This document shows, piece after piece, positions 16,785 to 61,799 of a stretch of DNA of 64,000 nucleotides. Position numbers and translations under genes: made by a program. Below the pieces are notes generated by a model, which saw only the letters and a program-made list of their open reading frames with translations, had not been told where the DNA came from and searched no databases. The stretch comes from a virus. Positions within the stretch are counted from its first letter, which is position 1, and each line of letters starts with the position of its first letter. Where the stretch lies: positions 1 to 64,000 of the IMG/VR virus record IMGVR_UViG_3300030329_004107; one strand, 5' to 3'.

Positions 16785-17939
16785 TTAATTAATGTCTCCA
16801 TTGCGTTTCAATTCCTGTAATTTGTCGTGAGGAATTCCTAATCCACCAATGGCAGTATATACAATTAAATTGTCTTTATTACCACTGTAGATTCCGCGAT
16901 GTACAGTATTTCCCGGTTTTAAGATTCTTGAGAATTGCTCAAAAGCTTTGTCAAGATTTTCTTGAGGGACTTGATTAAGAACGTTGACTCCGCCTACGAC
17001 GACTACGCCAGCGCAGCTACCAGACTCAAGATCAAAGCCTCCGCATAGAAGATTTTGTTTTAAATTATCTCTAACTGTTTTAGAAATACTTGTAGGCTTT
17101 GTCCAATCCGATACAGGAGACGCGCCATATAAGATGCAGCCTGAATTTAGAATTTGCCTATAGTCATTTGGATCAAAAGAAGAATAACTGCTGTCTTTTG
17201 CCGCAGTTATGTTAAACAGGTGAAATAAGCCAACGATACTTTTGTTGGCAGTTTCCCAAAATGGCCCCACTGGCAACTTTGGATAGAGCTTGCTAATTTT
17301 TTCATTGTCAATCAAAATTAAAGGAGATACCTTTCCTTCTTGCACCATACCTAAAACACGATGCAAAAGCTGAAAAGCATTAGCGTTTACTTTTTTGCCT
17401 TCTGAGACTTTGGGCAAAGCGAGAACGACGCCAACCTTTTTGGGTCCGTCGATTTGAGCGATGTCTTGATATTGAAGAGCGCTGTCAATTAACGAGCAAG
17501 TTGTTCCTGCGCCTGATCCACCACCCGCACCAGCGCAAACGAAAATTCTATCGATTTCGTCTCCGAAGGCTTCGCGCATCAAATCAAACGCATCTTCTTT
17601 CTTCTCGGAAAAAAGTTTAGCAGCCAAGTCCATATCTTTTCCCGCTCCTCCACTGCCGATACAAAGCTTATGCTCAATATCTACAGTATTAAGGTCTTGC
17701 TGTGCCGTGTTTATGGCGCATACTCTTGCGTATCCGAATTTATGAAAAGTTTCCGCGATTCTAGAGCCGCCTTGACCAGCGCCCACGAAAGCAAATTTAA
17801 AAGCTCCATCGAACTTATCTTCAATTACTTTTTCAGGTGGTGCTGCTTCAGGTACGGGAATTTCTGGGAGAGACAGGTCAAAATCGTCTGCGCCCATGTT
17901 GTTGTAGGAAGCTAAATCATCTATTTTATCATCACTCAT
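16785..17939 (-). CDS. Tubulin/FtsZ-like GTPase
   Basis: A 384-aa protein. It carries the FtsZ-type nucleotide elements in order: FVGAGQGGSR (about 51-60), AINTAQQDL (75-83), GSGGAGKD (95-102), the tubulin signature AGAGGGSGAGTT (136-147) and GVVLALP (170-176). SFDPNDYRQIL (254-264) aligns with the T7 loop of FtsZ and keeps both catalytic Asp residues (D256, D259), while the preceding Asn is Ser. A Pro/Glu-rich N-terminal tail (1-45) precedes the GTPase domain. It is closer to FtsZ than to the divergent PhuZ type by eye. It sits directly after the portal gene, unlike known phage tubulins in replication regions. Confidence 0.85.
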   Translation of the reverse strand: MSDDKIDDLASYNNMGADDFDLSLPEIPVPEAAPPEKVIEDKFDGAFKFAFVGAGQGGSRIAETFHKFGYARVCAINTAQQDLNTVDIEHKLCIGSGGAGKDMDLAAKLFSEKKEDAFDLMREAFGDEIDRIFVCAGAGGGSGAGTTCSLIDSALQYQDIAQIDGPKKVGVVLALPKVSEGKKVNANAFQLLHRVLGMVQEGKVSPLILIDNEKISKLYPKLPVGPFWETANKSIVGLFHLFNITAAKDSSYSSFDPNDYRQILNSGCILYGASPVSDWTKPTSISKTVRDNLKQNLLCGGFDLESGSCAGVVVVGGVNVLNQVPQENLDKAFEQFSRILKPGNTVHRGIYSGNKDNLIVYTAIGGLGIPHDKLQELKRNGDIN

Positions 17940-23734: not shown

Positions 23735-24815
23735 CTAAAGCCTCGTCTTTACTCAATCCTAAAATTTTGCACTTTATATCGTCCATGTTTGACAAATTAT
23801 CTACCTCTTCTGATACTATTTTTTTACGCCGCTCTGCGATAGCAATCATTTTTTGTCTGGACTCTTCTTCTTTCCACATCTCTACTAAGTTTAAAATACT
23901 TGCGTTGCTTTTAAGCTGCGATTTTAACTTGTCGCTTCTTTTTTCTTTTAAATCTCCAAGAAGCTTATGCTGTCGATTTACAGATTGATTATATTCAGTT
24001 TGAGCAGTATTGATTGACTCTACCAACGACATAGCTATCCGTCGCCCTTCTGAGTCATCTGCTGATTGGTCTAAAAGCCGTTGAAGGTGCTCTACGCGCC
24101 GTTGGATGTTAACCGCGATAACCACCTCAACAGAAAGCACTATATATTGATCTACTTCTTCTTGAGTTAAATCTTCTTTATCGTGAGTATAGCGAACAAA
24201 ACTGCTTTCAAATAACTCTCGATCTTCAATAGTTTCATAATTGTTAATTTGATGTAAAAACCTATAAGTATGAAGATAGCCAATAAGAGAGTTTATATCT
24301 CTTTTTTGTTTTGCTGTAATTTTATTTTTATTTATTCCGTGGAGTACATACTTATTTACTCTGGTGATGGCTCTATCTGCGTTTGTGGGCGGTTTGTATT
24401 CGCCTTGAGGCACGCTATTGTCATTTTGTGCTGATTCAATATTTAACGTCGAAATGAAGTCATTAACCGTTCTAGTCTCTTGAGAGAGATTGGATATCTT
24501 ATCATCTTTGAATAGAATCCTAGCGATTTCTACTGCCGTCATCATACCGGCGTTATTAACGATGAACTCTTTTTTTTCTTCGTCTAACTTTAAAACGCCT
24601 TTGTGCTTGTATTCGTGTGAGGCTCGGGCACGTATTTGCCTCGTAGCTAAAAACGCTTTTACGGCCTTTCCCTCTTTTGTTCGGCCATCTAGCTCTGGAT
24701 TATCTGGATACGCTACTCTTATCAACTCTAATAAAGAGGGCGGGTTATCAGGCCGGTTATTCCACTCGCTCAAGATATCCTGTTGCTGCTGCGCGTTTAA
24801 ATTCGGTAAACTCAT
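23727..24815 (-). CDS. Putative terminase small subunit
   Basis: A 362-aa, strongly helical protein with a possible helix-turn-helix near the N-terminus (residues about 85-125) and a long coiled-coil end. Its place two genes before TerL in a coupled operon suggests it recognises DNA for packaging. Length is greater than most TerS proteins and no clear family motif is seen, so this is inference from context. Confidence 0.45.
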   Translation of the reverse strand: MSLPNLNAQQQQDILSEWNNRPDNPPSLLELIRVAYPDNPELDGRTKEGKAVKAFLATRQIRARASHEYKHKGVLKLDEEKKEFIVNNAGMMTAVEIARILFKDDKISNLSQETRTVNDFISTLNIESAQNDNSVPQGEYKPPTNADRAITRVNKYVLHGINKNKITAKQKRDINSLIGYLHTYRFLHQINNYETIEDRELFESSFVRYTHDKEDLTQEEVDQYIVLSVEVVIAVNIQRRVEHLQRLLDQSADDSEGRRIAMSLVESINTAQTEYNQSVNRQHKLLGDLKEKRSDKLKSQLKSNASILNLVEMWKEEESRQKMIAIAERRKKIVSEEVDNLSNMDDIKCKILGLSKDEALDG

Positions 24816-25495
24816 ACTATATCAATGTTATTCTTATCTAGATGCTTTTTAACTTTTTCAATGATAGATTTTTTGATATTTTTAATTTGTTTATATCCGG
24901 GTGATCTGTTTTTTTCTGAAGTTTTGTATCCTAGCTCTTCAGCCACTTCTTGTTCTGATTTATTGTTTATATAAAGACTTAGATATACTTTCCATTCTAT
25001 AGGCTTTAAAATCTCCTTCATCTTTTTATGGAGTTTCATTATATTAGACTCGACATCAAAAGAGTCGCTAGATTGACTGAAAACTTCTTGAGCGTGATTT
25101 TCTAAAGGTAAGGGTATTTTTAAGTCGTGAGCCCGCTTTTTAGTCCTTTCCCAAGTTTGATATAAAGGACATGTTGAATCTTGCTTGCCGTAAATCTCAC
25201 ATAGATTGTTGCCTTCTGCGGCTGCACATTTTAAACAAGGTCTACAATAATTACCATAGTTGTTTCTAATTAAATTTTTTATTTGATTTGATATGATTCT
25301 GTTGAGCCAAGGCGCTAAAGGCTTGGATTGGTCGTAAAGATGCCACTTTTTGTATATGTGTATCCTTAGTATCTGAGACACATCATCGAAATCCATCCAA
25401 GGAATTGCTGTTAAATTCCATTTATTTTTGCGCTTGATAATTTCTTGATTTACTTCTTCGATACATTCTTCAAAAGTTCTCTCTTTCTGTTTTAT
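24812..25495 (-). CDS. Phage sigma factor with probable AUA start
   Basis: A 227-aa protein. Region 2 is visible (WMDFDDVSQILRIHIYKKW, then PLAPWLNRIISNQIKNLIRN) and a region-4 helix-turn-helix (NNKSEQEVAEELGYK) follows. Between them is a Cys-rich insert (CRPCLKCAAAEGNNLCEIYG, then C-P) that may bind metal. The first in-frame ATG (25396) would cut region 2. The open frame continues 33 codons upstream to an ATA 7 nt after AAGGAG that overlaps the upstream stop as ATAA, exactly like an ATGA junction. No ATG, GTG or TTG occurs in that stretch. Probable role: late-gene transcription. Confidence 0.75.
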   Translation of the reverse strand: MKQKERTFEECIEEVNQEIIKRKNKWNLTAIPWMDFDDVSQILRIHIYKKWHLYDQSKPLAPWLNRIISNQIKNLIRNNYGNYCRPCLKCAAAEGNNLCEIYGKQDSTCPLYQTWERTKKRAHDLKIPLPLENHAQEVFSQSSDSFDVESNIMKLHKKMKEILKPIEWKVYLSLYINNKSEQEVAEELGYKTSEKNRSPGYKQIKNIKKSIIEKVKKHLDKNNIDIV

Positions 25496-29494: not shown

Positions 29495-29686
29495 TTATGC
29501 GGCAACCCACTCGTCTTTGCCTGTTTCAATGTCCGCCAACACAAAGCCAACGGGGTCATCTCCAGACCAGTAGCTTTCTCCGTCAGAACACATCTCCATT
29601 TGAATTTCGGTGATGCGCCACAGCTTCCCGTTATACTCAACGACGTTTCCCACGTCGCTCCAATCGTTGTAATCTTTATCTTTCAT
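29495..29686 (-). CDS. Hypothetical protein
   Basis: A 63-aa acidic protein (GNVVEYNGKLWRITEI). Not recognised. A sigma-54-like 22-bp element ends 12 nt upstream of the ATG. Confidence 0.55.
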   Translation of the reverse strand: MKDKDYNDWSDVGNVVEYNGKLWRITEIQMEMCSDGESYWSGDDPVGFVLADIETGKDEWVAA

Positions 29687-29697
29687 AATCTATCCTA

Positions 29698-29719
29698 TAC
29701 ACAGCAGGTTGTGTGCCAA
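29698..29719 (-). promoter_or_regulatory. Sigma-54-like element, copy 1
   Basis: Minus strand TTGGCACACAACCTGCTGTG: GG-N10-GC as in -24/-12 promoters. Precedes the gene 29495-29686. Confidence 0.5.
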
Positions 29720-29724
29720 AATCA

Positions 29725-29898
29725 TTAAACTTTTTTTATGAGACATTTACAGACGCGCTCCCCTTTTTTAGAAGTGCAAAATAGTCTGTCAGCAACACGT
29801 TGCGCGTGTTCCTCATTCCTTGCGTTAACGAACCCAAGGGTGGCGTCTCCATCGAATGTGAGAACTTCAAATAATTTTTCTTTCTTCATCGTTTTCAT
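29725..29898 (-). CDS. Hypothetical protein
   Basis: A 57-aa basic protein starting MKTMKKEKLFEVLTFDGDAT, with two close Cys (VCKCLIKKV) at the end. Unrecognised. The ATG follows AGAGGTAGA, and a sigma-54-like element lies upstream. Confidence 0.55.
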   Translation of the reverse strand: MKTMKKEKLFEVLTFDGDATLGFVNARNEEHAQRVADRLFCTSKKGERVCKCLIKKV

Positions 29899-29909
29899 CT
29901 TCTACCTCT

Positions 29910-29931
29910 TACACAGCAGGTTGTGTGCCAA
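29910..29931 (-). promoter_or_regulatory. Sigma-54-like element, copy 2
   Basis: Same 22-bp element (TTGGCACA-N4-CTGCT) upstream of the 57-aa gene at 29725-29898. Confidence 0.5.
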
Positions 29932-29935
29932 GTTT

Positions 29936-30019
29936 CTATTCTGCTAGGCCAATGGCCCAACACAGGCCCAAGCCAATCACGGCGCAAGGTGCGGCGATAA
30001 TTAAAATCTCGTTAATCAT
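29936..30019 (-). CDS. Membrane microprotein (27 aa)
   Basis: MINEILIIAAPCAVIGLGLC and a short end: one transmembrane helix. AAGGAAAGGA lies upstream of the ATG. The stop codon is 5 nt from element copy 2. Confidence 0.6.
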   Translation of the reverse strand: MINEILIIAAPCAVIGLGLCWAIGLAE

Positions 30020-30020
30020 T

Positions 30021-30098
30021 TTATCCTTTCCTTAACTGGCTTGTCAGCCAGCAAAGCCAGAGCAGCGTCAAGCTAAATGCAAATAATGGTTCAATCAT
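30021..30098 (-). CDS. Membrane microprotein (25 aa), paralogue of 52421-52495
   Basis: MIEPLFAFSLTLLWLCWLTS plus a basic tail. The protein at 52421-52495 begins MIEALFAFSLTLLWVCW, so this is a real conserved family despite its size. Its end supplies the ribosome-binding site for the next gene. Confidence 0.7.
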   Translation of the reverse strand: MIEPLFAFSLTLLWLCWLTSQLRKG

Positions 30099-30100
30099 CT

Positions 30101-30262
30101 TTAGTCCCTGTCTTTCAGGTTGAGTGGAGCATTGAATTGGGCATCCCAACGGGCTTGCTCCTCGTCACGCTTTCTGTTGACTTCTTGCCTTGCTTTCATT
30201 GCAGCGAGCCATTCGTGTAGGTCGCTCTTGAACTCGTTTAGGTTTTCTTTGTTGTCTTTCAT
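30101..30262 (-). CDS. Hypothetical charged helical protein
   Basis: A 53-aa protein, helical (NLNEFKSDLHEWLAAMKARQ) and rich in Lys, Arg, Glu. Unrecognised. The ATG follows AGAGGTAGATATT. Confidence 0.6.
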   Translation of the reverse strand: MKDNKENLNEFKSDLHEWLAAMKARQEVNRKRDEEQARWDAQFNAPLNLKDRD

Positions 30263-30274
30263 AATATCTACCTC

Positions 30275-30397
30275 TTACACAGCAGGATGCGTGCCAAGTT
30301 CGCGTTGCGTTTGTTCTAGCATTGCTTCTAGTTGGTCGAGTTGAGCGAGTGCCATCATCAAGGCTCGCTCTAGTTTGGCTTGTTCTTTGTCGTTCAT
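30275..30397 (-). CDS. Small helical protein (LGTHPA family)
   Basis: A 40-aa protein, MNDKEQAKLERALMMALAQL..., ending ELGTHPAV. A paralogue lies at 31378-31506. A sigma-70-type promoter places its ATG at about +4. Both paralogues end exactly on a sigma-54-like element, so the C-terminus may have been shaped by that element. Confidence 0.6.
   Translation of the reverse strand: MNDKEQAKLERALMMALAQLDQLEAMLEQTQRELGTHPAV
30276..30297 (-). promoter_or_regulatory. Sigma-54-like element, copy 3
   Basis: TTGGCACG-CATC-CTGCT on the minus strand, before the gene at 30101-30262. This copy also forms the last codons (LGTHPAV, stop) of the 40-aa gene at 30275-30397. Confidence 0.5.
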
Positions 30398-30406
30398 TGT
30401 TGTTAT

Positions 30407-30435
30407 AAGATAGCACAAGATTGGCCATTTGTCAA
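30407..30435 (-). promoter_or_regulatory. Sigma-70-type promoter
   Basis: TTGACA, 17-nt spacer, TATCTT, with the family extension TGTGC before the -10. Predicted +1 at about 30400; ATG at 30397. Confidence 0.8.
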
Positions 30436-30466
30436 GGGGTAAAATGCATTTTTTTTCAAAAAAAGT

Positions 30467-30513
30467 TTGACACTTGGCACGGAGGCTGCTGCCGCCCCGC
30501 CGCACATTGTCAA
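30467..30513 (-). repeat. 47-bp hairpin repeat, copy 1
   Basis: Starts TTGACA and ends TGTCAA (plus strand), with a GC-rich inner hairpin. On the minus strand it is followed by AC and seven T, so it can act as a terminator. The plus strand contains TTGGCACG-GAGG-CTGCT, the same core as the sigma-54-like elements. Confidence 0.75.
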
Positions 30514-30627
30514 GGGGAAAGGGGAGTTTTTTTCGGTATGTTTTCAACCTTCCTGTGTTCCCCACACAGCCTTTCCTTTTCCTTTCGGTTCCCCGCTTCA
30601 TTGCGAGAAATTATAAAATTATCACAT

Positions 30628-30652
30628 TAAAAAAAAGCCCGCTTTCGCGGGG
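30628..30652 (-). terminator. Rho-independent terminator
   Basis: Minus-strand CCCGC-GAAA-GCGGG then C and eight T, following the gene ending at 30659. Confidence 0.85.
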
Positions 30653-30658
30653 TGAGGT

Positions 30659-30874
30659 TTACAGAAGCTCGCGCTTCTCGACCCATTTGAGGTAGGCATC
30701 GGAGTGATAACCGCACCATTCTTGGTACTGGTCATCATACTCGCGAATCTCCTCTTCCCTCACGCGGAAGGACTTGTCGCCATCGACGACCAGCCACTTG
30801 CCGTTGCGCGGCGAGGCGGCGACTACTCCGAGGTAGCCGTTGAGGTTTTCAACCTCCATACCTAATTCGATCAT
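30659..30874 (-). CDS. Hypothetical protein
   Basis: A 71-aa acidic protein with GMEVENLNGYLGVVAASPRN, which looks like a small SH3-like beta barrel. Its codons are more GC-rich than those of its neighbours, which may reflect separate acquisition. Unit bounded by terminators on both sides. Confidence 0.55.
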   Translation of the reverse strand: MIELGMEVENLNGYLGVVAASPRNGKWLVVDGDKSFRVREEEIREYDDQYQEWCGYHSDAYLKWVEKRELL

Positions 30875-30882
30875 AATGATAT

Positions 30883-30919
30883 TAAAAGGGCGCGATCTCC
30901 GAGGCCATCGCGCTGGCCC
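30883..30919 (-). terminator. Hairpin terminator
   Basis: GCGCGAT / ATCGCGC stem extended by GGG/CCC, followed by TTTT on the minus strand, just after the gene ending at 30925. Confidence 0.6.
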
Positions 30920-30924
30920 ATATT

Positions 30925-31107
30925 CTAGTTTGCGTAAAATTCTTCGCTGGTCGGCATCATGTCGCGGAAGTCGTCCTCGATGTTTATAGTGCTTTCCTGC
31001 ACTCTGGACGACATCGCGGCGGCGATGCGGTTGGCGTGGTCTTGGTCGGTGGCCCGCACAAATTCGCGTTGGCCGTTTACTTGAGTTTCAAAAATGTTGT
31101 CGTTCAT
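30925..31107 (-). CDS. Hypothetical protein
   Basis: A 60-aa protein (MNDNIFETQVNGQREFVRAT...). The ATG at 31107 directly follows a sigma-54-like element; longer upstream readings run through that element and are unlikely. Unrecognised. Confidence 0.6.
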   Translation of the reverse strand: MNDNIFETQVNGQREFVRATDQDHANRIAAAMSSRVQESTINIEDDFRDMMPTSEEFYAN

Positions 31108-31112
31108 ACCTA

Positions 31113-31134
31113 TACACAGCAAGTTGTGTGCCAA
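31113..31134 (-). promoter_or_regulatory. Sigma-54-like element, copy 4 (best match)
   Basis: Minus strand TTGGCACA-CAAC-TTGCT: identical to the -24/-12 consensus, including TTGCT. The A of the downstream ATG would lie at about +1. Confidence 0.55.
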
Positions 31135-31139
31135 TTCAT

Positions 31140-31373
31140 TTAAAACTTTTCTACAAAAAATTCTTCGCCCCAAGCTTCCAAGTGAAATTCTTCTTTGGGC
31201 AACCATCCCATCCAGCCATCCGATGCACGGACAAGCCACATCGGGGGAAAGGCATTGTCATTGCGACGTTCCAGAATGAAACCCTTTGCGCCATGCTCAC
31301 GGATGCGGTTTTTGGTGCGCGTGGTGGCTTTGCTGTTGGGGCTGATTAAGATTCTTTGTCCTTCGATGTTCAT
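31140..31373 (-). CDS. Hypothetical protein
   Basis: A 77-aa protein with MNIEGQRILISPNSKATTRT and a Trp-rich centre (MWLVRASDGWMGWLP). Unrecognised. Start chosen at the ATG beside the sigma-54-like element. Confidence 0.6.
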   Translation of the reverse strand: MNIEGQRILISPNSKATTRTKNRIREHGAKGFILERRNDNAFPPMWLVRASDGWMGWLPKEEFHLEAWGEEFFVEKF

Positions 31374-31377
31374 ACTA

Positions 31378-31506
31378 TTACAGAGCAGGATGCGTGCCAA
31401 GTTCGTTTTGTGTTTGCTCGACCATTGCTTCCACTTGGTCGAGTTGGGCGAGTGCCATCATAAAGGCTCGTTGCAGTTCGGCTTGTTGTTCTTCGTTCAT
31501 CATCAT
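31378..31506 (-). CDS. Small helical protein (LGTHPA family)
   Basis: A 42-aa paralogue of the gene at 30275-30397 (shared MMALAQLDQ and ELGTHPA). The ATG coincides with the predicted +1 of its promoter, so the mRNA would be leaderless. Confidence 0.6.
   Translation of the reverse strand: MMMNEEQQAELQRAFMMALAQLDQVEAMVEQTQNELGTHPAL
31379..31400 (-). promoter_or_regulatory. Sigma-54-like element, copy 5
   Basis: TTGGCACG-CATC-CTGCT, upstream of the gene 31140-31373 and inside the 3' end of the LGTHPA gene. Confidence 0.5.
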
Positions 31507-31512
31507 GCATAG

Positions 31513-31545
31513 AGCATATCACAGAGGGTGGGACATCCGTAGTCC
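31513..31545 (-). promoter_or_regulatory. GGAC-GTCC palindrome promoter, copy 1
   Basis: Minus strand GGACTACGGATGTCC (GGAC/GTCC arms), then CACCC, then an extended -10 (TGATATGCT). Predicted +1 at 31506, the ATG itself. Two near-identical copies at 31677 and 33260. Confidence 0.65.
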
Positions 31546-31670
31546 TACCTTTTGTTTTTCTTTTTCCACTCTTTCACGAGTTGCTTCACTGCTTCCACGG
31601 ATTCCTTCCAGCGTTGCACGCGTCTTTCAACCTTGCGCTGCTGCTCTCTCTTTTGTTCTTCAGTCATCAT
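31545..31670 (-). CDS. Small basic coiled-coil protein
   Basis: A 41-aa protein, MMTEEQKREQQRKVERRVQR and a Lys-rich end. The ATG is at the predicted +1 of the palindrome promoter (leaderless). Unrecognised. Confidence 0.55.
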   Translation of the reverse strand: MMTEEQKREQQRKVERRVQRWKESVEAVKQLVKEWKKKNKR

Positions 31671-31676
31671 GCGTAT

Positions 31677-31709
31677 ACTATAACACAGGGGGTGGGACAT
31701 CCGCAGTCC
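31677..31709 (-). promoter_or_regulatory. GGAC-GTCC palindrome promoter, copy 2
   Basis: GGACTGCGGATGTCC, CACCCCC, then TGTTATAGT (extended -10). Predicted +1 at 31670 equals the ATG. Confidence 0.65.
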
Positions 31710-31739
31710 TACCAAAAAGAAAGTTGAAAAAATTTTGCC

Positions 31740-31786
31740 TTGACACTTGGCACGGAGGCGGCTGCGGCCCCGCCGCACATTGTCAA
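31740..31786 (-). repeat. 47-bp hairpin repeat, copy 2
   Basis: Same element as at 30467, with changes in the inner stem. Lies between the gene ending at 31839 and the palindrome promoter. Confidence 0.75.
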
Positions 31787-31838
31787 GCCCCAATACCAAA
31801 AAAGCAAGACAACGTGGGCGAGGTTAGTATTTAATTAT

Positions 31839-32117
31839 TTAATATTCATCATCTTCCCATTTATAATCTATTGGTGGAAGCAATTCGTAAAGCTCCTCGC
31901 CTCTTTGAATGCTCAAAATGTATGGTTCAATTTCTGGAAGGTAAACGCTTCCCCATTCGTCTGCAAAACCCATGACGAAACCATAAGCAATTCCTTCGCT
32001 GTCTGTTTCGCCAAGGTAATATTCCCAGCCGTGTCGAGTGATAATGTGTTGGGCGACCTCGAATGGTTCGCCGCCATTCATGTGGATGATCTTGCGAGTT
32101 TTATGTAATGTTTTCAT
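31839..32117 (-). CDS. Hypothetical protein
   Basis: A 92-aa acidic protein (GEPFEVAQHIITRHGWEYYL). Unrecognised. It follows the gene at 32119 by one base. Confidence 0.55.
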   Translation of the reverse strand: MKTLHKTRKIIHMNGGEPFEVAQHIITRHGWEYYLGETDSEGIAYGFVMGFADEWGSVYLPEIEPYILSIQRGEELYELLPPIDYKWEDDEY

Positions 32118-32118
32118 A

Positions 32119-32349
32119 TTAGTTTAATTCTGGTCTGGATGTAAAACCATGCGCTGCTTGCACTTGATTCGCTTGCTCGATTAGGTCTGGGCAAGCGTCC
32201 CAAGCCCATGCCGAGAACTCAAGAACGCTCTCGGTGTCTTCGAATTGCGGACTGTCTTTGACGCAATCCCACAGGTCAATGATGGCAATCCAATTGTTTT
32301 TATTCCATGTGGCCCATTCGGGCAGTTCGTTGATGGGTATGTTTTTCAT
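32119..32349 (-). CDS. Hypothetical protein
   Basis: A 76-aa Trp-rich acidic protein (PEWATWNKNNWIAIIDLWDC). Unrecognised; tightly linked with its neighbours. Confidence 0.55.
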   Translation of the reverse strand: MKNIPINELPEWATWNKNNWIAIIDLWDCVKDSPQFEDTESVLEFSAWAWDACPDLIEQANQVQAAHGFTSRPELN

Positions 32350-32352
32350 TTT

Positions 32353-32514
32353 TTAGTTCCAGTTTTCTTGGAGGGCAACGACCTCTTTTTCTTCTTCTTC
32401 AGTAGGTTGTTTTACTCCGTCGCATACTGCGTCGAGCAGCTTGAGAGTAGGCTTGTCAAAGTTCTCCACGGTGTTTTCCTCGTGGCTCCAATCGTTGTGT
32501 TCTTCAATCATCAT
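32353..32514 (-). CDS. Hypothetical acidic protein
   Basis: A 53-aa protein (MMIEEHNDWSHEENTVENFD...). Unrecognised. Preceded by AGAGGTAGAT and a sigma-54-like element. Confidence 0.55.
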   Translation of the reverse strand: MMIEEHNDWSHEENTVENFDKPTLKLLDAVCDGVKQPTEEEEKEVVALQENWN

Positions 32515-32524
32515 ATCTACCTCT

Positions 32525-32546
32525 TACACAGCAGGATGCGTGCCAA
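32525..32546 (-). promoter_or_regulatory. Sigma-54-like element, copy 6
   Basis: TTGGCACG-CATC-CTGCT. It fills exactly the space between the TAG of the upstream gene (32547) and the leader of the next. Confidence 0.5.
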
Positions 32547-32735
32547 CTAGGGTTCTACTTTTCTCAAAAGGCTTTTCTGCATAACGAAATTCGCACCATG
32601 CTTTGCGTGAGGAGGAGTGTGCCATACCCACACACGGCCCGTTACGGGGCGAGTCGGGTCAAGGTCATGGGTTACAATACCACGCCAACGCGGATTGTCA
32701 CGGTGCTTTACTTTGTCGTCTACTTTAATCTTCAT
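32547..32735 (-). CDS. Hypothetical basic protein
   Basis: A 62-aa protein with KVDDKVKHRDNPRWRGIVTH and VTGRVWVWHTPPHAKHGA: a small beta barrel of the KOW/SH3 kind is possible. Unrecognised. Confidence 0.55.
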   Translation of the reverse strand: MKIKVDDKVKHRDNPRWRGIVTHDLDPTRPVTGRVWVWHTPPHAKHGANFVMQKSLLRKVEP

Positions 32736-32745
32736 ATCTACCTCT

Positions 32746-32766
32746 TACACAGCAGGATGCGTGCCA
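32746..32766 (-). promoter_or_regulatory. Sigma-54-like element, copy 7
   Basis: TGGCACG-CATC-CTGCT upstream of the gene 32547-32735 (the first T of the usual TTGG is replaced by A). Confidence 0.45.
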
Positions 32767-32769
32767 TCT

Positions 32770-32937
32770 TTAGTCTCTGTCTCTGATGTCATTACCATCG
32801 TTGTCGTTGTAATAACCCGACACGCCCCACTGCTTGTCGTAGTTGGGGAGGTTGTTCGTCACTGGTCGCACAGGGGGAAGCTCAGGCACGGGTACTTCCA
32901 ATGCGGCTGCTTTTTTGGTTTCTTCTTTGTCTTTCAT
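32770..32937 (-). CDS. Hypothetical protein
   Basis: A 55-aa Pro-rich protein (LEVPVPELPPVRPVTNNLP). Unrecognised. Confidence 0.5.
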   Translation of the reverse strand: MKDKEETKKAAALEVPVPELPPVRPVTNNLPNYDKQWGVSGYYNDNDGNDIRDRD

Positions 32938-32949
32938 AATCTCTACCTA

Positions 32950-32971
32950 TACACAGCAGGTTGTGTGCCAA
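32950..32971 (-). promoter_or_regulatory. Sigma-54-like element, copy 8
   Basis: TTGGCACA-CAAC-CTGCT upstream of the gene 32770-32937. Confidence 0.5.
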
Positions 32972-32974
32972 GTT

Positions 32975-33253
32975 TTAGTCGCCGTGATAGTGGCCTTGCT
33001 TGTAATACTGAACCAATTCGTTGTTGCGGGATTCGGTCAATGCTTGATGCTCCCAGACATTGGAGTAGTGTCTATGCTTGAGGAAAAATTGCCCCTCGAA
33101 ACAGGCAACCCATGTTTGGAGTTTGCTGGCCAATTCAATCGCCGCCTCAAGCCCTTCGTGAGACTTGGCGAAATAATGGCTTTCCTCGTTCTCATAATCG
33201 TACACGCAATAGTGCGGTGTGGTGTTTAATTGTTCTTCGTTCATTTTCATCAT
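32975..33253 (-). CDS. Hypothetical protein
   Basis: A 92-aa protein (YCVYDYENEESHYFAKSHEG). The ATG at 33253 coincides with the predicted +1 of its palindrome promoter. Unrecognised. Confidence 0.6.
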   Translation of the reverse strand: MMKMNEEQLNTTPHYCVYDYENEESHYFAKSHEGLEAAIELASKLQTWVACFEGQFFLKHRHYSNVWEHQALTESRNNELVQYYKQGHYHGD

Positions 33254-33259
33254 GTGATT

Positions 33260-33292
33260 AGTATAGCATAGGGGGTGGGACATCCGTAGTCC
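33260..33292 (-). promoter_or_regulatory. GGAC-GTCC palindrome promoter, copy 3
   Basis: GGACTACGGATGTCC, CACCCCC, then TGCTATACT (extended -10). Predicted +1 at 33253 equals the ATG. Confidence 0.7.
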
Positions 33293-33465
33293 TAGTGACT
33301 TAATTCCCAAGCAATTTCTAGCTTGGCCCAGCTTCGATTAGTTGTGCCACGCTGGGCAGCGTGTTCAAGCTGACGGAAACGCAAATTCGCTTCATGCTTG
33401 GTTTTCTCCTTGCAAGCAAGGGCAACGTTCTCGGCGGTGGTGTTTTTCTTCGTGTTGTTTTTCAT
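33292..33465 (-). CDS. Hypothetical protein
   Basis: A 57-aa basic helical protein (MKNNTKKNTTAENVALACKE...). Its TAG abuts the palindrome of the next promoter. Unrecognised. Confidence 0.55.
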   Translation of the reverse strand: MKNNTKKNTTAENVALACKEKTKHEANLRFRQLEHAAQRGTTNRSWAKLEIAWELSH

Positions 33466-33471
33466 ACCCTA

Positions 33472-33493
33472 TACACAGCAGGATGCGTGCCAA
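33472..33493 (-). promoter_or_regulatory. Sigma-54-like element, copy 9
   Basis: TTGGCACG-CATC-CTGCT; the ATG of the next gene lies about 7 nt beyond the element, so +1 and ATG nearly coincide. Confidence 0.5.
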
Positions 33494-33510
33494 CCCATTG
33501 TTAAGGGGAA

Positions 33511-33587
33511 TGGTAGGCAAGGTGGGACTCGAACCCACGACCCACGGTTTAGAAGACCGTTGCTCTATCCAACTGAGCTACTTGCCC
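33511..33587 (-). tRNA. tRNA-Arg (anticodon UCU)
   Basis: A complete 77-nt cloverleaf: acceptor GGGCAAG / CTTGCCT, D arm, anticodon stem ACGGT/ACCGT with loop CTTCTAA (anticodon TCT), T arm with GGTTCGAGTCC, and an encoded ACCA end. It would read AGA codons. A sigma-54-like element directly precedes it, which shows that this element is not a translation signal. Confidence 0.95.
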
Positions 33588-33600
33588 AAATCTGTTCCTA

Positions 33601-33622
33601 TACACAGCAGGATGCGTGCCAA
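33601..33622 (-). promoter_or_regulatory. Sigma-54-like element, copy 10 (tRNA gene)
   Basis: TTGGCACG-CATC-CTGCT, ending 14 nt before the 5' end of tRNA-Arg. Supports a role in transcription start or RNA processing. Confidence 0.55.
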
Positions 33623-33641
33623 CCTCGACGCGAAAAAAAAC

Positions 33642-33688
33642 TTGACACTTGGCACGGAGGCCGCTGCCGCCCCAGCGCACATTGTCAA
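33642..33688 (-). repeat. 47-bp hairpin repeat, copy 3
   Basis: TTGACA...TGTCAA ends, GC-rich centre, then G and eight T on the minus strand. Confidence 0.75.
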
Positions 33689-33723
33689 AAAAAAAGCGCC
33701 ACAAAAAAGCAAAGGCGTGGCGG
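33687..33723 (-). terminator. Rho-independent terminator
   Basis: Minus-strand CGCCAC / GTGGCG stem followed by C and nine T residues, after the gene ending at 33747. It merges into the hairpin repeat, giving two hairpins in a row. Confidence 0.75.
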
Positions 33724-33746
33724 CTTATTTGTTATTTGTTCCTTTC

Positions 33747-33941
33747 TTATTTCTTATTTAAATAGCTATCGGTTTCTTCTTCGGAAGCCATTCTCAAATT
33801 CTTTGCTTTTAATAGCTCCGGTTTGTTGTCGTGGTGAGTAACCCACACGCTAGAAGTGTTAGCCTTTGCTCTTGCTCGCCATACTTTACCGGAGGCTTCT
33901 TCCGCATAAAGGGAGCCGTTTTTAATATGATTAATATTCAT
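33747..33941 (-). CDS. Hypothetical protein
   Basis: A 64-aa protein (GKVWRARAKANTSSVWVTHH). Overlaps the upstream gene by 11 nt. Unrecognised. Confidence 0.5.
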   Translation of the reverse strand: MNINHIKNGSLYAEEASGKVWRARAKANTSSVWVTHHDNKPELLKAKNLRMASEEETDSYLNKK

Positions 33942-34104
33942 CAGTTATCCTTTCATCACTTGGGAAATGTGCGTCTATCTGGTCGGGGTAGATGTACGCT
34001 TCTTCTCCATCATCATCTGCAACCCAATAGCCATCTTCACAAACCTCTTCTACTATGAATTGTTTTATTCCAATAACAATTAGGTCTTTCTCTTTTATCT
34101 TCAT
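33931..34104 (-). CDS. Hypothetical protein
   Basis: A 57-aa acidic protein (MKIKEKDLIVIGIKQFIVEE...YWVADDDGEEAYIYP): looks like a small SH3-type barrel. ATG about 4 nt after the predicted +1. Confidence 0.55.
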   Translation of the reverse strand: MKIKEKDLIVIGIKQFIVEEVCEDGYWVADDDGEEAYIYPDQIDAHFPSDERITDEY

Positions 34105-34114
34105 TGCTATAATT

Positions 34115-34143
34115 AGTTTATACTACGCTTTAAATTTAGTCAA
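34115..34143 (-). promoter_or_regulatory. Sigma-70-type promoter (weak)
   Basis: TTGACT, 17 nt, TAAACT, with the family AAAGCG core in the spacer. Predicted +1 at 34108. Confidence 0.55.
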
Positions 34144-34144
34144 G

Positions 34145-34342
34145 CTAAAATGTTCTATGTATCAAATCTTTTGGTGTGGTGGTTGGTGGTCGCCACCCTT
34201 GGTCGCACTTGCAATACTTCGGGCAATCATCCTCTGCGCTTCCCTCTTTTGCCACCGTTTCGTGACAGGTGGGGCAAAGGAATAGTCGGCGCATCTGTGG
34301 GTAATCTCGGCAAAACTTTTTTGTCTTTGGCCCATACTTCAT
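34145..34342 (-). CDS. Zinc-ribbon-like hypothetical protein
   Basis: A 65-aa protein with LFLCPTCHETV and DDCPKYCKCDQGW, giving five Cys and one His in zinc-ribbon spacing. Function unknown. Confidence 0.55.
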   Translation of the reverse strand: MKYGPKTKKFCRDYPQMRRLFLCPTCHETVAKEGSAEDDCPKYCKCDQGWRPPTTTPKDLIHRTF

Positions 34343-34352
34343 TTAATCCTCC

Positions 34353-34538
34353 TTACAGATAATCCTTACAGATAACGCGGCGCACAGCATCATGGTCAGG
34401 TGTGTAGGAATACTCTGTGTGAACCAAGTCACCCATACCATCCAACACTTCATTTACTGCATCTTGCTTGCTAATTGCTTCGACTTCAAACGTAGCGCAG
34501 TGAATCTCGTTTAATTCTACTTTGTATAATCTTTTCAT
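34353..34538 (-). CDS. Hypothetical protein
   Basis: A 61-aa protein (YKVELNEIHCATFEVEAISK); one base separates it from the next gene. Unrecognised. Confidence 0.5.
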   Translation of the reverse strand: MKRLYKVELNEIHCATFEVEAISKQDAVNEVLDGMGDLVHTEYSYTPDHDAVRRVICKDYL

Positions 34539-34539
34539 T

Positions 34540-34740
34540 TTAATCCTCCACTATGTCCATTCGTGCAACGGTGTTTCCGTTATGGTCTTGCGCTGTTACA
34601 AAGTCACCAGCATCAACCGCCATCATTCTTCCAGCGCGAGCCAACAACCTGTCTGTCACATTGTTCATTTCAAACAAGCGTTCCGCAGGAGTATCGCCAA
34701 ACGCTTCGTTGCCTAGTTCAATTTTAATTATAGCTTTCAT
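34540..34740 (-). CDS. Hypothetical protein
   Basis: A 66-aa protein (MKAIIKIELGNEAFGDTPAE...). Unrecognised. A variant sigma-54-like element sits 7 nt upstream. Confidence 0.5.
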   Translation of the reverse strand: MKAIIKIELGNEAFGDTPAERLFEMNNVTDRLLARAGRMMAVDAGDFVTAQDHNGNTVARMDIVED

Positions 34741-34747
34741 TTGTATG

Positions 34748-34769
34748 TACGCAGCATGTTCCGTGCCAA
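34748..34769 (-). promoter_or_regulatory. Sigma-54-like element, copy 12 (variant)
   Basis: TTGGCACG-GAAC-ATGCT: the four central and several flanking bases differ from the other copies while GG-N10-GC is kept, as expected if the -24/-12 pattern is what matters. Confidence 0.5.
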
Positions 34770-34771
34770 GT

Positions 34772-35044
34772 TTACACTTGGGCTTGTGCTTTTACAATAT
34801 CATCAAATTCCATCATGTGATATTCGTTCCCGCTTGTAAGGGAGGTTATGTGGTCGTTGTAGAGTGGCACTCGGCCTTCTCGGAGAGAGGCGATGTTTTT
34901 TAAATCCACCGCATCAAGTTCGGCGGCGAGAGTGTTTCTCCGTGTCCCATCATCCCATGTGCGTTGGTCTCGCTCCGCTATGTCTGCTTGAAGGCGACGG
35001 ATGTGAGCGGAGAATAGTTCGTTTACTTTTTTGTCTTGTTCCAT
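34772..35044 (-). CDS. Hypothetical helical protein
   Basis: A 90-aa charged helical protein (NELFSAHIRRLQADIAERDQ). Unrecognised. Confidence 0.5.
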   Translation of the reverse strand: MEQDKKVNELFSAHIRRLQADIAERDQRTWDDGTRRNTLAAELDAVDLKNIASLREGRVPLYNDHITSLTSGNEYHMMEFDDIVKAQAQV

Positions 35045-35078
35045 AATCTTTATAATGTTTCTATGTCAATGCTTTTTG

Positions 35079-35342
35079 TTAAAGTTTTTTAATGACGTTT
35101 ATCCAATCTTGTACATCACTTTCATTCTGCCAACCTTTGACGGTATCACCCCAATCAGCAGGGTCAATCATATGATTGTTAAAGAATACGCCAATTTCAT
35201 ACAAACCTTTTTCGCTACCGTGAGAAAACTTATGCTTCACCACGGAAACATCGTAGCCATTAGGTAATTCCACATACGCCTGAATCGCACCTTCTCCATG
35301 CGTTTCAGAGATGTCATCAAATTTTAAATCTTCAAACTTCAT
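35079..35342 (-). CDS. Hypothetical protein
   Basis: An 87-aa acidic protein (QAYVELPNGYDVSVVKHKFS). Start overlaps the stop of the 31-aa membrane protein (ATGA). Unrecognised. Confidence 0.55.
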   Translation of the reverse strand: MKFEDLKFDDISETHGEGAIQAYVELPNGYDVSVVKHKFSHGSEKGLYEIGVFFNNHMIDPADWGDTVKGWQNESDVQDWINVIKKL

Positions 35343-35434
35343 AGTGTTTCAATATAAATGCCTGTTAATATAATAACAATAAAAGACGCGATACCCACGC
35401 TAATTACAAAACATAAATCTCTATCGTCTTTCAT
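35339..35434 (-). CDS. Membrane microprotein (31 aa)
   Basis: MKDDRDLCFVISVGIASFIV followed by IILTGIYIETL: one transmembrane helix. Coupled to the next gene by ATGA; driven by the promoter at 35500 with a leader of about 58 nt. Confidence 0.6.
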   Translation of the reverse strand: MKDDRDLCFVISVGIASFIVIILTGIYIETL

Positions 35435-35499
35435 AAAATTCTGAACCCTCGTTTTTTAGATGCTCTCCTGCATCACGGGTTCTCTCAAACAACTGACAT

Positions 35500-35528
35500 A
35501 ATATAGCACACAAAGGTCAGCTTGTCAA
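35500..35528 (-). promoter_or_regulatory. Sigma-70-type promoter
   Basis: TTGACA, 17 nt, TATATT with TGTGC before the -10. Confidence 0.85.
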
Positions 35529-35547
35529 GGGGTGTAATGCATTTTTT

Positions 35548-35979
35548 TCATTTTCTGTACTTGTCTTCCCACCACCAAATACTGCTAGGCTCGGTGAGGT
35601 AGGCCCACACGCCATCTGTACGAATCTCAACGAACCACGCTTCTCTTACTGGAACGGACTCGTCCTCTACCAAAACAAAACTCTTATGTTTATAAGGGTT
35701 GTAAGTAATCTTCTGCCACGCGCAAAGCTCAATGCCGGTGCTGTAGTCATCAATCAGCGATTCCCGCATTCTCATGCCTTGAATGTAAGCGTGAACGTTT
35801 TTGCGCTTCTCGTCACGCACTCGCTGGTTGCCTTTCGGGCCTACCCTCAAGACGGGGCGACTTAACGCAATTTCTGTAACGTGGTCTACAACAATACCTT
35901 TGTCATTGCGAACACTATAAACCGATGTGCCTTCTTTGGTAGTTTTGTGTAGGTTGCGGTATACTTGTACTTTTTCCAT
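35548..35979 (-). CDS. Hypothetical protein
   Basis: A 143-aa protein (MEKVQVYRNLHKTTKEGTSV...), with a region QGMRMRESLIDDYSTGIELC. ATG 35979 chosen because GGAGGACTAAAC precedes it. Unrecognised. Confidence 0.55.
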   Translation of the reverse strand: MEKVQVYRNLHKTTKEGTSVYSVRNDKGIVVDHVTEIALSRPVLRVGPKGNQRVRDEKRKNVHAYIQGMRMRESLIDDYSTGIELCAWQKITYNPYKHKSFVLVEDESVPVREAWFVEIRTDGVWAYLTEPSSIWWWEDKYRK

Positions 35980-35981
35980 GT

Positions 35982-36188
35982 TTAGTCCTCCTGCCCGCCA
36001 AAGATTCCGTCTTGGCAAGTCTGACAATAAGCCGAAATGCCGTACTCTTTGCGGCTGAGTTCGTCGCGGAACTCAAGGTTGTACTGGCCGCACTTGACGC
36101 ACTGGCCCGCAGCCAGCGCGATATTGCGGCTACGGCCAAATAGGTTTAGGCACATCGCCTCTTTCATGTCTTCTATCTCGTTTAACAT
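35982..36188 (-). CDS. Zinc-ribbon-like small protein
   Basis: A 68-aa protein with QCVKCGQY and YCQTCQD: a four-Cys zinc ribbon. ATG at 36188 matches the predicted +1 of its promoter within one base. Confidence 0.6.
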   Translation of the reverse strand: MLNEIEDMKEAMCLNLFGRSRNIALAAGQCVKCGQYNLEFRDELSRKEYGISAYCQTCQDGIFGGQED

Positions 36189-36193
36189 AATAA

Positions 36194-36222
36194 AATATAG
36201 CACAGGTTGGTTGGTTTGTCAA
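36194..36222 (-). promoter_or_regulatory. Sigma-70-type promoter, leaderless type
   Basis: TTGACA, 17 nt, TATATT. Predicted +1 at 36187; ATG at 36188. Confidence 0.85.
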
Positions 36223-36226
36223 GGGC

Positions 36227-36343
36227 TCAACCCCAATTTTTCTGATGTTTTTTCCGACGACGGAAAGAGCCTTTACCCTTCTTGACTTTATGCTCACGGG
36301 ACGCGCTTCCCATGAACCCTTGTTTGTTTACTCTTGCTTTCAT
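36227..36343 (-). CDS. Very basic small protein
   Basis: A 38-aa protein (MKARVNKQGFMGSASREHKV and KGKGSFRRRKKHQKNWG), net charge strongly positive. Could bind nucleic acid. Preceded by a sigma-54-like element. Confidence 0.55.
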   Translation of the reverse strand: MKARVNKQGFMGSASREHKVKKGKGSFRRRKKHQKNWG

Positions 36344-36349
36344 ACCCTA

Positions 36350-36371
36350 TACACAGCAGGTTGCGTGCCAA
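36350..36371 (-). promoter_or_regulatory. Sigma-54-like element, copy 11
   Basis: TTGGCACG-CAAC-CTGCT; predicted +1 next to the ATG of the basic 38-aa protein. Confidence 0.5.
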
Positions 36372-36391
36372 CCTCGATGCGAAAAAAAAAC

Positions 36392-36438
36392 TTGACACTT
36401 GGCACGGCGGCGGCTGCCGCCCCAGCGCACATTGTCAA
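36392..36438 (-). repeat. 47-bp hairpin repeat, copy 4
   Basis: Inner stem GGCGG/CCGCC differs in sequence from other copies but keeps pairing. Followed on the minus strand by G and nine T. Confidence 0.75.
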
Positions 36439-36442
36439 GAGG

Positions 36443-36485
36443 AATCGCCGCACCAGCGAAAAACAAAAAAACTGATGCGGCGATT
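36443..36485 (-). terminator. Long hairpin after 36547 gene
   Basis: AATCGCCGCA / TGCGGCGATT, a 10-bp perfect stem extended by CAG/CTG. The U tract is supplied only by the following repeat, so the two hairpins probably act together. Confidence 0.6.
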
Positions 36486-38154: not shown

Positions 38155-38182
38155 AATATAGCACAAAATAGCTACTTGTCAA
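38155..38182 (-). promoter_or_regulatory. Sigma-70-type promoter, leaderless type
   Basis: TTGACA, 16 nt, TATATT. Predicted +1 38148; ATG 38149. Confidence 0.85.
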
Positions 38183-38214
38183 GGGGCCGAGGGTTTTTTT
38201 TGAAAAAAGTTTTT

Positions 38215-38261
38215 TTGACACTTGGCACGGAGGCTGCTGCCGCCTCGCCGCACATTGTCAA
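38215..38261 (-). repeat. 47-bp hairpin repeat, copy 5
   Basis: Nearly identical to copy 1. Lies between a terminator (38283) and the next promoter. Confidence 0.75.
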
Positions 38262-38282
38262 GCCTTTTTTACGAACAAGGCA

Positions 38283-40869: not shown

Positions 40870-40898
40870 AATATAGCACACGCTTTAGGTTTTGTCAA
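40870..40898 (-). promoter_or_regulatory. Sigma-70-type promoter, leaderless type
   Basis: TTGACA, 17 nt, TATATT with AAAGCGTGTGC. Predicted +1 40863 = A of ATG. Confidence 0.9.
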
Positions 40899-41189: not shown

Positions 41190-41218
41190 AATATAGCACA
41201 CGCTTTACGGGTTGTCAA
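41190..41218 (-). promoter_or_regulatory. Sigma-70-type promoter, leaderless type
   Basis: TTGACA, 17 nt, TATATT with AAAGCGTGTGC. Predicted +1 41183 = A of ATG. Confidence 0.9.
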
Positions 41219-46874: not shown

Positions 46875-47936
46875 TCATTTTTTTCTCAAAGGGTTATCAT
46901 CATATCCATAACACTGATTAGAAAGACCCTTTAGTTTAGCCAGTGCGATAAATTGTATCTGTCTGATTCTCTCCCTAGTGAGGCCATGTCTCTCGCCAAT
47001 TTTTTCAAGCGTTTCACTCTCTTTGTTATCCAAGCCAAAGCGATAAATGAGAATTTGTTTTTCACGGCGCGTTAATTGGCTTAAAAACTTTTCAAGCACT
47101 TCAATATCTTCAGAAAATTCATACTGGTCAGAAGGTGACTCGCTATCGTCTGGGATCATAGCCTCAAGATCGGGTGGGCTGTCGGAAACGGTGGAGTGGT
47201 TGCGTGAGGCGGGTTCTTGCAAAGAGCAAATATTCATCACCCCGCTCTCAAAAACATTTTCAACCATATTAACCGAGCATTTGGCTCCTTTAGCAATTTG
47301 CTCTCTAGTAGGTTCGTGACCATGTTCATCTTTAAATTCATTTTTAAAAGTTAGAATACGATAATAAGCGTCCCGCGCATTTTCGGGCAATGCAATCACA
47401 CGGGCATCACGGGCCAGCAAACGGAGAATAGATTGGCGAATCCAAAAAGCTGCATAAGTAGAGAGTTTAGTCCCTTTTCCTAGCTGGAATTTATCAACTG
47501 CTCGCATCAATCCAATGTTTCCTTCGCTAATCAAATCATCCAAAGGAACACCGCATTTACTATAATCCCCTGCTATTTTAACAACGAGTAAAAGATTAGA
47601 TGTTATTAGCTTTTCTCTTGCTTCTCGACCAATTCTACGAACTCGGCCATTGCAACCGTTTTTTAAAGCGCGAGTGTCTCTCCATTTAATAAAATCAGTA
47701 AATAGCTTTTGTTCTTCGGCGCGTTTTAATCTAGGGAATTTGCCTATTTCTTCTAGGTACATTCCTAAAGCAGTTTCGTTATCGTTATCCCAAATTTGAA
47801 CGCCGTCTTTGTTCTCTTTTTCCCATTGACGTTTTTTCAGCCTTGCCGCATTAAGCTTCCTAAACCTAGAATTGGTGCTATTGCGTTTGCTTGCTGCTTC
47901 TGATTTGGTCATTTTCTTTTTCGATTGTTTTTTCAT
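46875..47936 (-). CDS. Full-size sigma-70 family factor (RpoD/RpoS-like)
   Basis: A 353-aa protein. Region 1.2 (ALGMYLEEIGKFPRLKRAEE), region 2 (GNIGLMRAVDKFQLGKGTKL, STYAAFWIRQSILRLLARDA), region 3 and region 4 (LTRREKQILIYRFGLDNKES, HGLTRERIRQIQFIALAKL) are all present; region 1.1 is missing and a basic tail replaces it. This is a group 1/2 sigma, much closer to bacterial housekeeping sigma than the usual small phage sigma. It could direct RNA polymerase to the TTGACA/TATATT promoters of this phage. Confidence 0.9.
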   Translation of the reverse strand: MKKQSKKKMTKSEAASKRNSTNSRFRKLNAARLKKRQWEKENKDGVQIWDNDNETALGMYLEEIGKFPRLKRAEEQKLFTDFIKWRDTRALKNGCNGRVRRIGREAREKLITSNLLLVVKIAGDYSKCGVPLDDLISEGNIGLMRAVDKFQLGKGTKLSTYAAFWIRQSILRLLARDARVIALPENARDAYYRILTFKNEFKDEHGHEPTREQIAKGAKCSVNMVENVFESGVMNICSLQEPASRNHSTVSDSPPDLEAMIPDDSESPSDQYEFSEDIEVLEKFLSQLTRREKQILIYRFGLDNKESETLEKIGERHGLTRERIRQIQFIALAKLKGLSNQCYGYDDNPLRKK

Positions 47937-54838: not shown

Positions 54839-54867
54839 AATATAGCACACACTTTAAATCTTGTCAA
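54839..54867 (-). promoter_or_regulatory. Sigma-70-type promoter, leaderless type
   Basis: TTGACA, 17 nt, TATATT with GTGTGC. +1 54832; ATG 54831. Confidence 0.9.
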
Positions 54868-61770: not shown

Positions 61771-61799
61771 ATTCTATTATACGCTTTGGCCCGTGTCAA
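61771..61799 (-). promoter_or_regulatory. Sigma-70-type promoter, leaderless type
   Basis: TTGACA, 17 nt, TAGAAT with AAAGCG. +1 61764 = A of ATG. Confidence 0.8.

Follow-up and report, generated by a model that had tools for sequence, protein, structure and literature searches.

A 22-nt element occurs twelve times on the minus strand between positions 29,698 and 36,371 of the window, that is, of the 64,000 bases analysed from the virus record IMGVR_UViG_3300030329_004107 (68,327 bases), and these twelve elements are very probably sigma-54-type (-24/-12) promoters that would be read by the RpoN of the host, the bacterial sigma factor for stress and nutrient responses, together with an activator. 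This reading, proposed by an initial annotation of the DNA, was supported by the match to a position-specific scoring matrix (PSSM) of Escherichia coli sites, by conservation of the core alone amid differing flanks, by the start-site geometry, by the placement of elements after terminators and by the exchange of promoters in front of orthologues. The consensus, its conservation and position and the replacement in relatives can be read directly from the DNA. Hereafter, G000 denotes the present phage, G001 onward the related virus contigs, and L numbers the phage hsp20 loci (feature coordinates are given in Table 1).

Match of the elements to sigma-54 promoters

To begin, all twelve copies were recovered where the initial annotation had located them, on the minus strand and each pointing into the next gene. 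Their placement 5′ of small genes also held, with 11 copies before open reading frames (ORFs) of 38–77 aa and one before tRNA-Arg(TCT). The motif proposed there, TTGGCAC(G/A)-N4-(C/T/A)TGCT, was right in general but not in its first base, the real core being [T/A]TGGCAC[G/A]-N4-[C/T/A]TGCT, as the copy at 32746-32767 begins with ATGGCAC. GG-N10-GC was present in 12/12 copies, and the fourth copy (31113-31134) matched TTGGCAC-N5-TTGCT, both as described; the copy with divergent flanks, assigned earlier to 36350, is instead that at 34748-34769 (TTGGCACGGAACATGCTGCGTA). A total of 13 minus-strand sites agreed with at least 11 of the 13 consensus positions, versus a mean of 1.1 on both strands of Markov shuffles. 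The plus-strand matches (30474, 31747, 33649, 36399 and 38222) are terminator hairpins of minus-strand transcripts, a separate feature.

The PSSM was constructed from 42 intergenic sense sites of E. coli sigma-54 ChIP-seq (PMC4591121, Table 1). In a scan with this PSSM, the twelve elements were the best matches of the whole 68.3-kb record, occupying ranks 1–12 among ~136,600 positions on both strands, with a gap between rank 12 and rank 13 (16.2 vs 14.5 bits). Furthermore, 47/47 copies from four phages outscored the median of the E. coli sites themselves (leave-one-out PSSM), and the GG-N10-GC spacing, within a core of the TGGCAC-N5-TTGC type, was found in all 47. The positions invariant among 39 unique copies (T2, G3, G4, C5, A6, C12, T14, G15, C16 and T17) include positions 3, 4, 14, 15 and 16, which were named as the most important for binding (PMC4591121). 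Position -15 of the elements is mostly C and not T, as it is in E. coli astC and norV.

Predicted start-site geometry and leaderless layout

Sigma-54 promoters start transcription ~12 nt after the GC, so that the predicted +1 would fall at element position 28, which equals the shortest distance found between an element and its ATG. The same position is obtained with the +19-from-centre rule by which starts were placed in PMC4591121. The distance to the ATG was 28, 29 or 30 for 28 copies, 33–36 for another 17 and in no case below 28; a usable Shine-Dalgarno sequence was present in 1/28 of the copies with the ATG at 28–30. Promoters of the sigma-70 type (TTGACA-N16-18-TANNNT) also stand close to the ATG, which most often lies exactly 6 nt past the -10 hexamer, a tendency of G000 that is clearer still in G004, and thus leaderless mRNAs seem normal for this phage group.

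Sigma-70-type promoters were located in the window at 30407-30435, 36194-36222, 38155-38182, 40870-40898, 41190-41218, 54839-54867 and 61771-61799, with the ATG 5–7 nt (once 9 nt) past the -10. Many of them have in common a spacer motif, TAAAGCGTGTG, which is perhaps an operator or the specificity determinant of the phage sigma factor. Moreover, promoters of a second class, which read GGACTRCGGATGTCCCACC-...-TGNTATRNT-N6-ATG and have no -35 consensus, were observed at 31489-31549, 31653-31713 and 33236-33296, and also in G009 and G024; this class looks activator-dependent and leaderless.

Terminators and promoter replacement

Minus-strand genes terminate at six hairpins that belong to a single family; five of these carry a T tail. 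The next feature after them was a sigma-70-type promoter in three cases (30435, 38182 and 39289), a promoter of the second class in one (31713) and the element in two (33622, before the tRNA, and 36371). Between the T8 tail and tRNA-Arg, no promoter-like sequence was apparent other than the element. Furthermore, orthologues of element-driven genes in G004, G009, G015 and G024, which have no element there, often carry a sigma-70-type or second-class promoter at the same place. Examples are the gene under the element at 36371 in G004 and G009, the gene of G001_2810 in G004 and G015, and that of G001_4560 in G009 and G024. The differing promoters at orthologous genes represent promoter replacement.

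The antisense strand of the terminator hairpins (30458-30519, 31731-31792, 33633-33694, 36383-36444 and 38206-38267) reads TTGGCACGGAGGC-GCTGC, which is element-like, and hairpins with this stretch on the sense strand occur in G009.

Relatives of the phage and hsp20 genes

The terminase gave at least 598 hits in a large group of virus contigs, taken to be mostly marine, and no close terminase match was found among named phages. Three relatives carry the array: G001, in which 12 copies fit the core pattern, G002 with 16 copies and G003 with 7. Wherever the terminase was visible, the array lay on the same strand as it. A search of viral contigs with the exact 22-nt element gave one other contig, and its degenerate form gave two more. 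In 21 relatives that have no array (783 kb), eight matches agreed with the consensus at 12 or more of 13 positions, versus a mean of 0.68 for permuted consensuses, of which 0/300 reached eight. Four of these array-less relatives have an Hsp20 gene (PF00011) with a site 29–32 nt before its ATG (G009 at 18712, G013 at 2398, G020 at 1421 and G024 at 3165), and in G011 the site before a fifth Hsp20 gene, equally far from the ATG, is weaker (10/13).

A sample of 40 phage hsp20 loci, collected without bias, gave 36 distinct upstream regions, many of the loci being related. A total of 30/36 of these regions of uncultured phages had a site with at least 10/13 agreement (permuted consensuses: mean 0.87, maximum 9 in 200), compared to 7/97 for other windows of the same loci. 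By upstream cluster, 17/21 were positive, and G009, whose site was missed with the upstream span used, adds one. The sites keep the -24/-12 core while the flanks differ, and the ATG lies 29–32 nt from the site start in one group and 46–54 nt, with an intervening Shine-Dalgarno, in another; as the distance to the ATG varies and the 17 nt of the site itself are fixed, the site behaves as a promoter and not as a translation signal. The hsp20 sites (loci L178–L212 and the relatives) were unexpected, extend more widely than the window and go beyond the original finding.

In G001–G003, a GC-rich inverted repeat starting with GTAGTTGC lies 36 or 49–52 nt (once 24 nt) 5′ of 21 elements and nowhere else in these contigs; this repeat could serve to terminate the preceding transcript or as the binding site of a regulator. 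Other relatives have palindromes resembling TTATTCACA-N3-TGTGAATAA followed by KTGGCACRNNNCNTGCTG (G010 at 23683, 25001 and 26857; G011 at 5109, 5753 and 5876; G012 at 35142), those of G010 with an additional GGGGCTGCCCC-T4 hairpin, and these sites are possible small RNA genes with sigma-54-type promoters.

Proposed mechanism and its meaning

In the mechanism that we infer, host RNA polymerase with host RpoN would bind TGGCAC (-26 to -21) and TGC (-14 to -12) as a closed complex, which an ATP-driven enhancer-binding protein of the host would open, with transcription starting ~12 nt after the GC, near element position 28. The mRNAs of the eleven accessory genes would begin at the ATG or no more than ~8 nt from it (leaderless or nearly so), and the tRNA-Arg transcript would receive a short leader. 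A sigma-54 promoter stays off as long as its ATP-driven activator has not answered a specific signal, and its use would thus couple the accessory genes of the phage, as well as its small heat-shock gene, to the physiological condition of the host cell. Expression of the accessory block would depend on the host signal that activates the enhancer-binding protein, with many other genes placed on sigma-70-type promoters.

More broadly, chances appear about even that widespread uncultured marine phages run a dedicated sigma-54 regulon, comprising a conserved hsp20 gene and, for part of the lineages, a multiplied set of at least a dozen leaderless accessory genes plus a tRNA. These genes would be expressed only with an active host enhancer-binding protein, so that a stress or nutrient signal of the host would control the accessory programme. 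If so, the strategy would be common, given the array in several marine contigs and the hsp20 site in ~18 upstream-sequence clusters, and the hosts of these phages would be predicted to have rpoN, a clue to their identity.

Points against the reading and alternative explanations

Several observations weigh against sigma-54 promoters read by host RpoN. No enhancer-binding protein was found in 26 phage records and no RpoN in the phage records searched, which would leave both to the host. In the window, no activator site common to the copies was recognised 5′ of them. A TATAGG region (positions 18–26), which sigma-54 does not need, is also fairly conserved. Moreover, in 14/17 copies with the ATG at 33–36 there is a usable Shine-Dalgarno, which would lie outside a sigma-54 transcript, and hence read-through mRNA may matter or be translated there. 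Regarding the host, terminase relatives in genomes were limited to two contigs of metagenome-assembled genomes (MAGs). One MAG with a full-length relative (Flavobacteriales) has rpoN; the terminase gene was found in just 1/298 genomes of its order, being absent from the 297 others, and the link between MAG and phage may for this reason be a binning error. In a sample of 399 genomes of the phylum, the gene was likewise absent apart from the seed, and tRNA similarity gave no information on the host.

It is unlikely that the elements are promoters read by a phage factor, such as one of two sigma-70-family proteins or an unrecognised polymerase, and not by host RpoN. The phage does encode a four-region sigma-70-family factor (46875-47936) and a region 2 protein (24812-25396), and TATAGG is conserved past the sigma-54 core. 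However, the core fits sigma-54 and has no sigma-70-type layout, there being no -10 hexamer at the 6-nt distance from the ATG that is seen in the other promoters of the phage, and distant phages have the same core, with other flanks, before hsp20. A sigma-70 promoter with TTGGCA as the -35 was rejected, as TATAGG is only 14 nt off, adjoins the ATG and is missing from several of the 12 copies. A T7-type promoter was also rejected, since Pfam and PHROGs scans of the large ORFs revealed no single-subunit RNA polymerase in a record that may be incomplete, which equally counts against a phage polymerase.

A role in translation or mRNA structure, through ribosome binding or a hairpin and in the manner of the start-associated sequences (SAS) of cluster K mycobacteriophages, is very unlikely. 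The elements lie within ~36 nt of start codons, a 5-bp hairpin is possible in 10/12 window copies, and 21/21 GTAGTTGC repeats of G001–G003 sit 5′ of an element, as ESAS does with SAS (PMC3203893). Nevertheless, the full stem, present in 10/12 copies of the window, is kept in 2/16 of G002 and 0/7 of G003, and an RNA hairpin was rejected because of this loss; Rfam gave no match except the tRNA. A Shine-Dalgarno or other translation element was rejected for its wrong spacing in 27/28 short-distance copies, in other phages the core stands 46–54 nt from the ATG, a distinct Shine-Dalgarno lying between the two, and the copy at 33601-33622, confirmed to precede tRNA-Arg, counts against a translational role as the initial annotation had argued.

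Least probable of all is that a DNA-binding protein of the phage uses the elements as operators or in the way of stoperators and that the sigma-54 match is coincidental: like the stoperators of L5, they are asymmetric, repeated and always oriented with transcription, and the terminator hairpins hold a similar TTGGCACG..GGCTGC stretch, but they are the top twelve of the E. coli sigma-54 PSSM, replace sigma-70-type promoters at orthologues and stand alone between a terminator and the tRNA.

Genes under the elements and other features of the record

Most of the small ORFs under the elements have homologues in related phages, which indicates that they are genuine genes, and none was convincingly named in a Pfam scan. 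Elsewhere, Pfam and PHROGs scans found RIIA/RIIB, PhoH, a clamp-loader-like ATPase and thymidylate synthase. No sigma-factor relatives were confirmed in viral contigs. The other sigma-70-family protein, a short one of 194 aa with region 2 (24812-25396), is encoded beside the terminase genes and may be a late sigma factor. The sequence GTGTAATA is enriched 5′ of structural genes and may be the promoter that this factor uses. Furthermore, a TubZ/FtsZ-like tubulin homologue is encoded at 16785-17939 of the window, in a phage of <70 kb, and a tail fibre of 1830 aa (3923-9415) has long collagen-like 9-nt repeats (Gly-X-Y).

Table 1. Coordinates of the candidate promoters, the genes next to them and other features in the window
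Feature	Position	Strand	Remark
Large terminase gene	20955-22778		
63-aa gene	29495..29686	(-)	element at 29719
Candidate sigma-54-type promoter	29698..29719	(-)	ATG at element position 34
57-aa gene	29725..29898	(-)	element at 29931
Candidate sigma-54-type promoter	29910..29931	(-)	ATG at 34
53-aa gene	30101..30262	(-)	element at 30297; G001 homologue 91% identical, under element
Candidate sigma-54-type promoter	30276..30297	(-)	ATG at 36
Terminator, same family	30458..30519	(-)	then sigma-70-type promoter at 30435
60-aa gene	30925..31107	(-)	element at 31134; homologues under element in two relatives
Candidate sigma-54-type promoter TTGGCACACAACTTGCT	31113..31134	(-)	top PSSM score; ATG at 28 (leaderless)
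77-aa gene	31140..31373	(-)	element at 31400; homologues under element in three relatives
Candidate sigma-54-type promoter	31379..31400	(-)	ATG at 28 (leaderless)
Terminator, same family	31731..31792	(-)	then second promoter class at 31713
53-aa gene	32353..32514	(-)	element at 32546
Candidate sigma-54-type promoter	32525..32546	(-)	ATG at 33
62-aa gene	32547..32735	(-)	element at 32767
Candidate sigma-54-type promoter, ATGGCAC variant	32746..32767	(-)	ATG at 33
55-aa gene	32770..32937	(-)	element at 32971
Candidate sigma-54-type promoter	32950..32971	(-)	ATG at 35
57-aa gene	33292..33465	(-)	element at 33493
Candidate sigma-54-type promoter	33472..33493	(-)	after tRNA-Arg, before 57-aa ORF; ATG at 29
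tRNA-Arg (TCT)	33511..33587	(-)	
Candidate sigma-54-type promoter	33601..33622	(-)	between terminator and tRNA-Arg
Terminator-like hairpin, T8 tail	33633..33694	(-)	element at 33622 10 nt later
66-aa gene	34540..34740	(-)	element at 34769; homologues in four relatives
Candidate sigma-54-type promoter TTGGCACGGAACATGCTGCGTA	34748..34769	(-)	most divergent copy; ATG at 30
38-aa gene	36227..36343	(-)	element at 36371; six relatives have homologues, in part under element, in part under sigma-70-type promoters
Candidate sigma-54-type promoter TTGGCACGCAACCTGCTGTGTA	36350..36371	(-)	directly after terminator 36383-36444; ATG at 29
Terminator-like hairpin, T9 tail	36383..36444	(-)	then element at 36371
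Terminator, same family	38206..38267	(-)	then sigma-70-type promoter at 38182
Sigma-70-type promoter, TTGACA-N17-TATATT-N6-ATG	40870..40898	(-)	example, leaderless
Sigma-70-family factor of the phage	46875..47936	(-)	regions 1.2, 2, 3 and 4

Comparison with known systems

The layout of the elements, short asymmetric repeats before the starts of small genes, resembles that of SAS in cluster K mycobacteriophages, where 11–19 short asymmetric repeats of unknown function directly precede the start codons of small genes that are not structural; an inverted repeat (ESAS) lies 5′ of about half of them (PMC3203893). SAS is a 13-bp sequence, GGGATAGGAGCCC, with no more than two mismatches, located 3–7 bp from the ATG and containing AGGAG, and it always stands at the start of a protein-coding gene (PMC3203893). 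In contrast, the elements are unrelated in sequence to GGGATAGGAGCCC, one of them (33601-33622) precedes tRNA-Arg, and, unlike SAS, they fit sigma-54 and have no consistent Shine-Dalgarno.

With the sigma-54 promoters of E. coli itself (PMC4591121), the elements share the 17-nt -24/-12 consensus, the invariant positions and the predicted start distance. The host sites are single and scattered before operons, usually with 5′ leaders, whereas the phage elements form a dense array, predicted to be mostly leaderless, with no activator site identified.

Among phages, the closest case is YuA, for which Ceyssens et al. in 2008 reportedly described three promoters with a sigma-54 site, using an rpoN mutant; these promoters are said to drive the structural and lysis operons. 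A passage of PMC5053324 describes the development of this Pseudomonas aeruginosa phage as strictly dependent on host sigma-54, and YuA was the only phage with demonstrated dependence of this kind that came up. The view of the initial annotation that recruitment of host RpoN by a phage would be unusual is thus right as to rarity, but it is not unprecedented, as YuA shows (PMC5053324). The likeness to YuA consists in the use of the sigma-54 of the host, predicted here from sequence; in contrast to the operons of YuA, the present phages, an uncultured family unlike it, have 12–16 copies each, with one small accessory gene or tRNA per copy and predicted leaderless mRNAs. Phage use of sigma-54 is accordingly already known, and what would be new is the leaderless array and, more widely, the sites before phage hsp20 genes.

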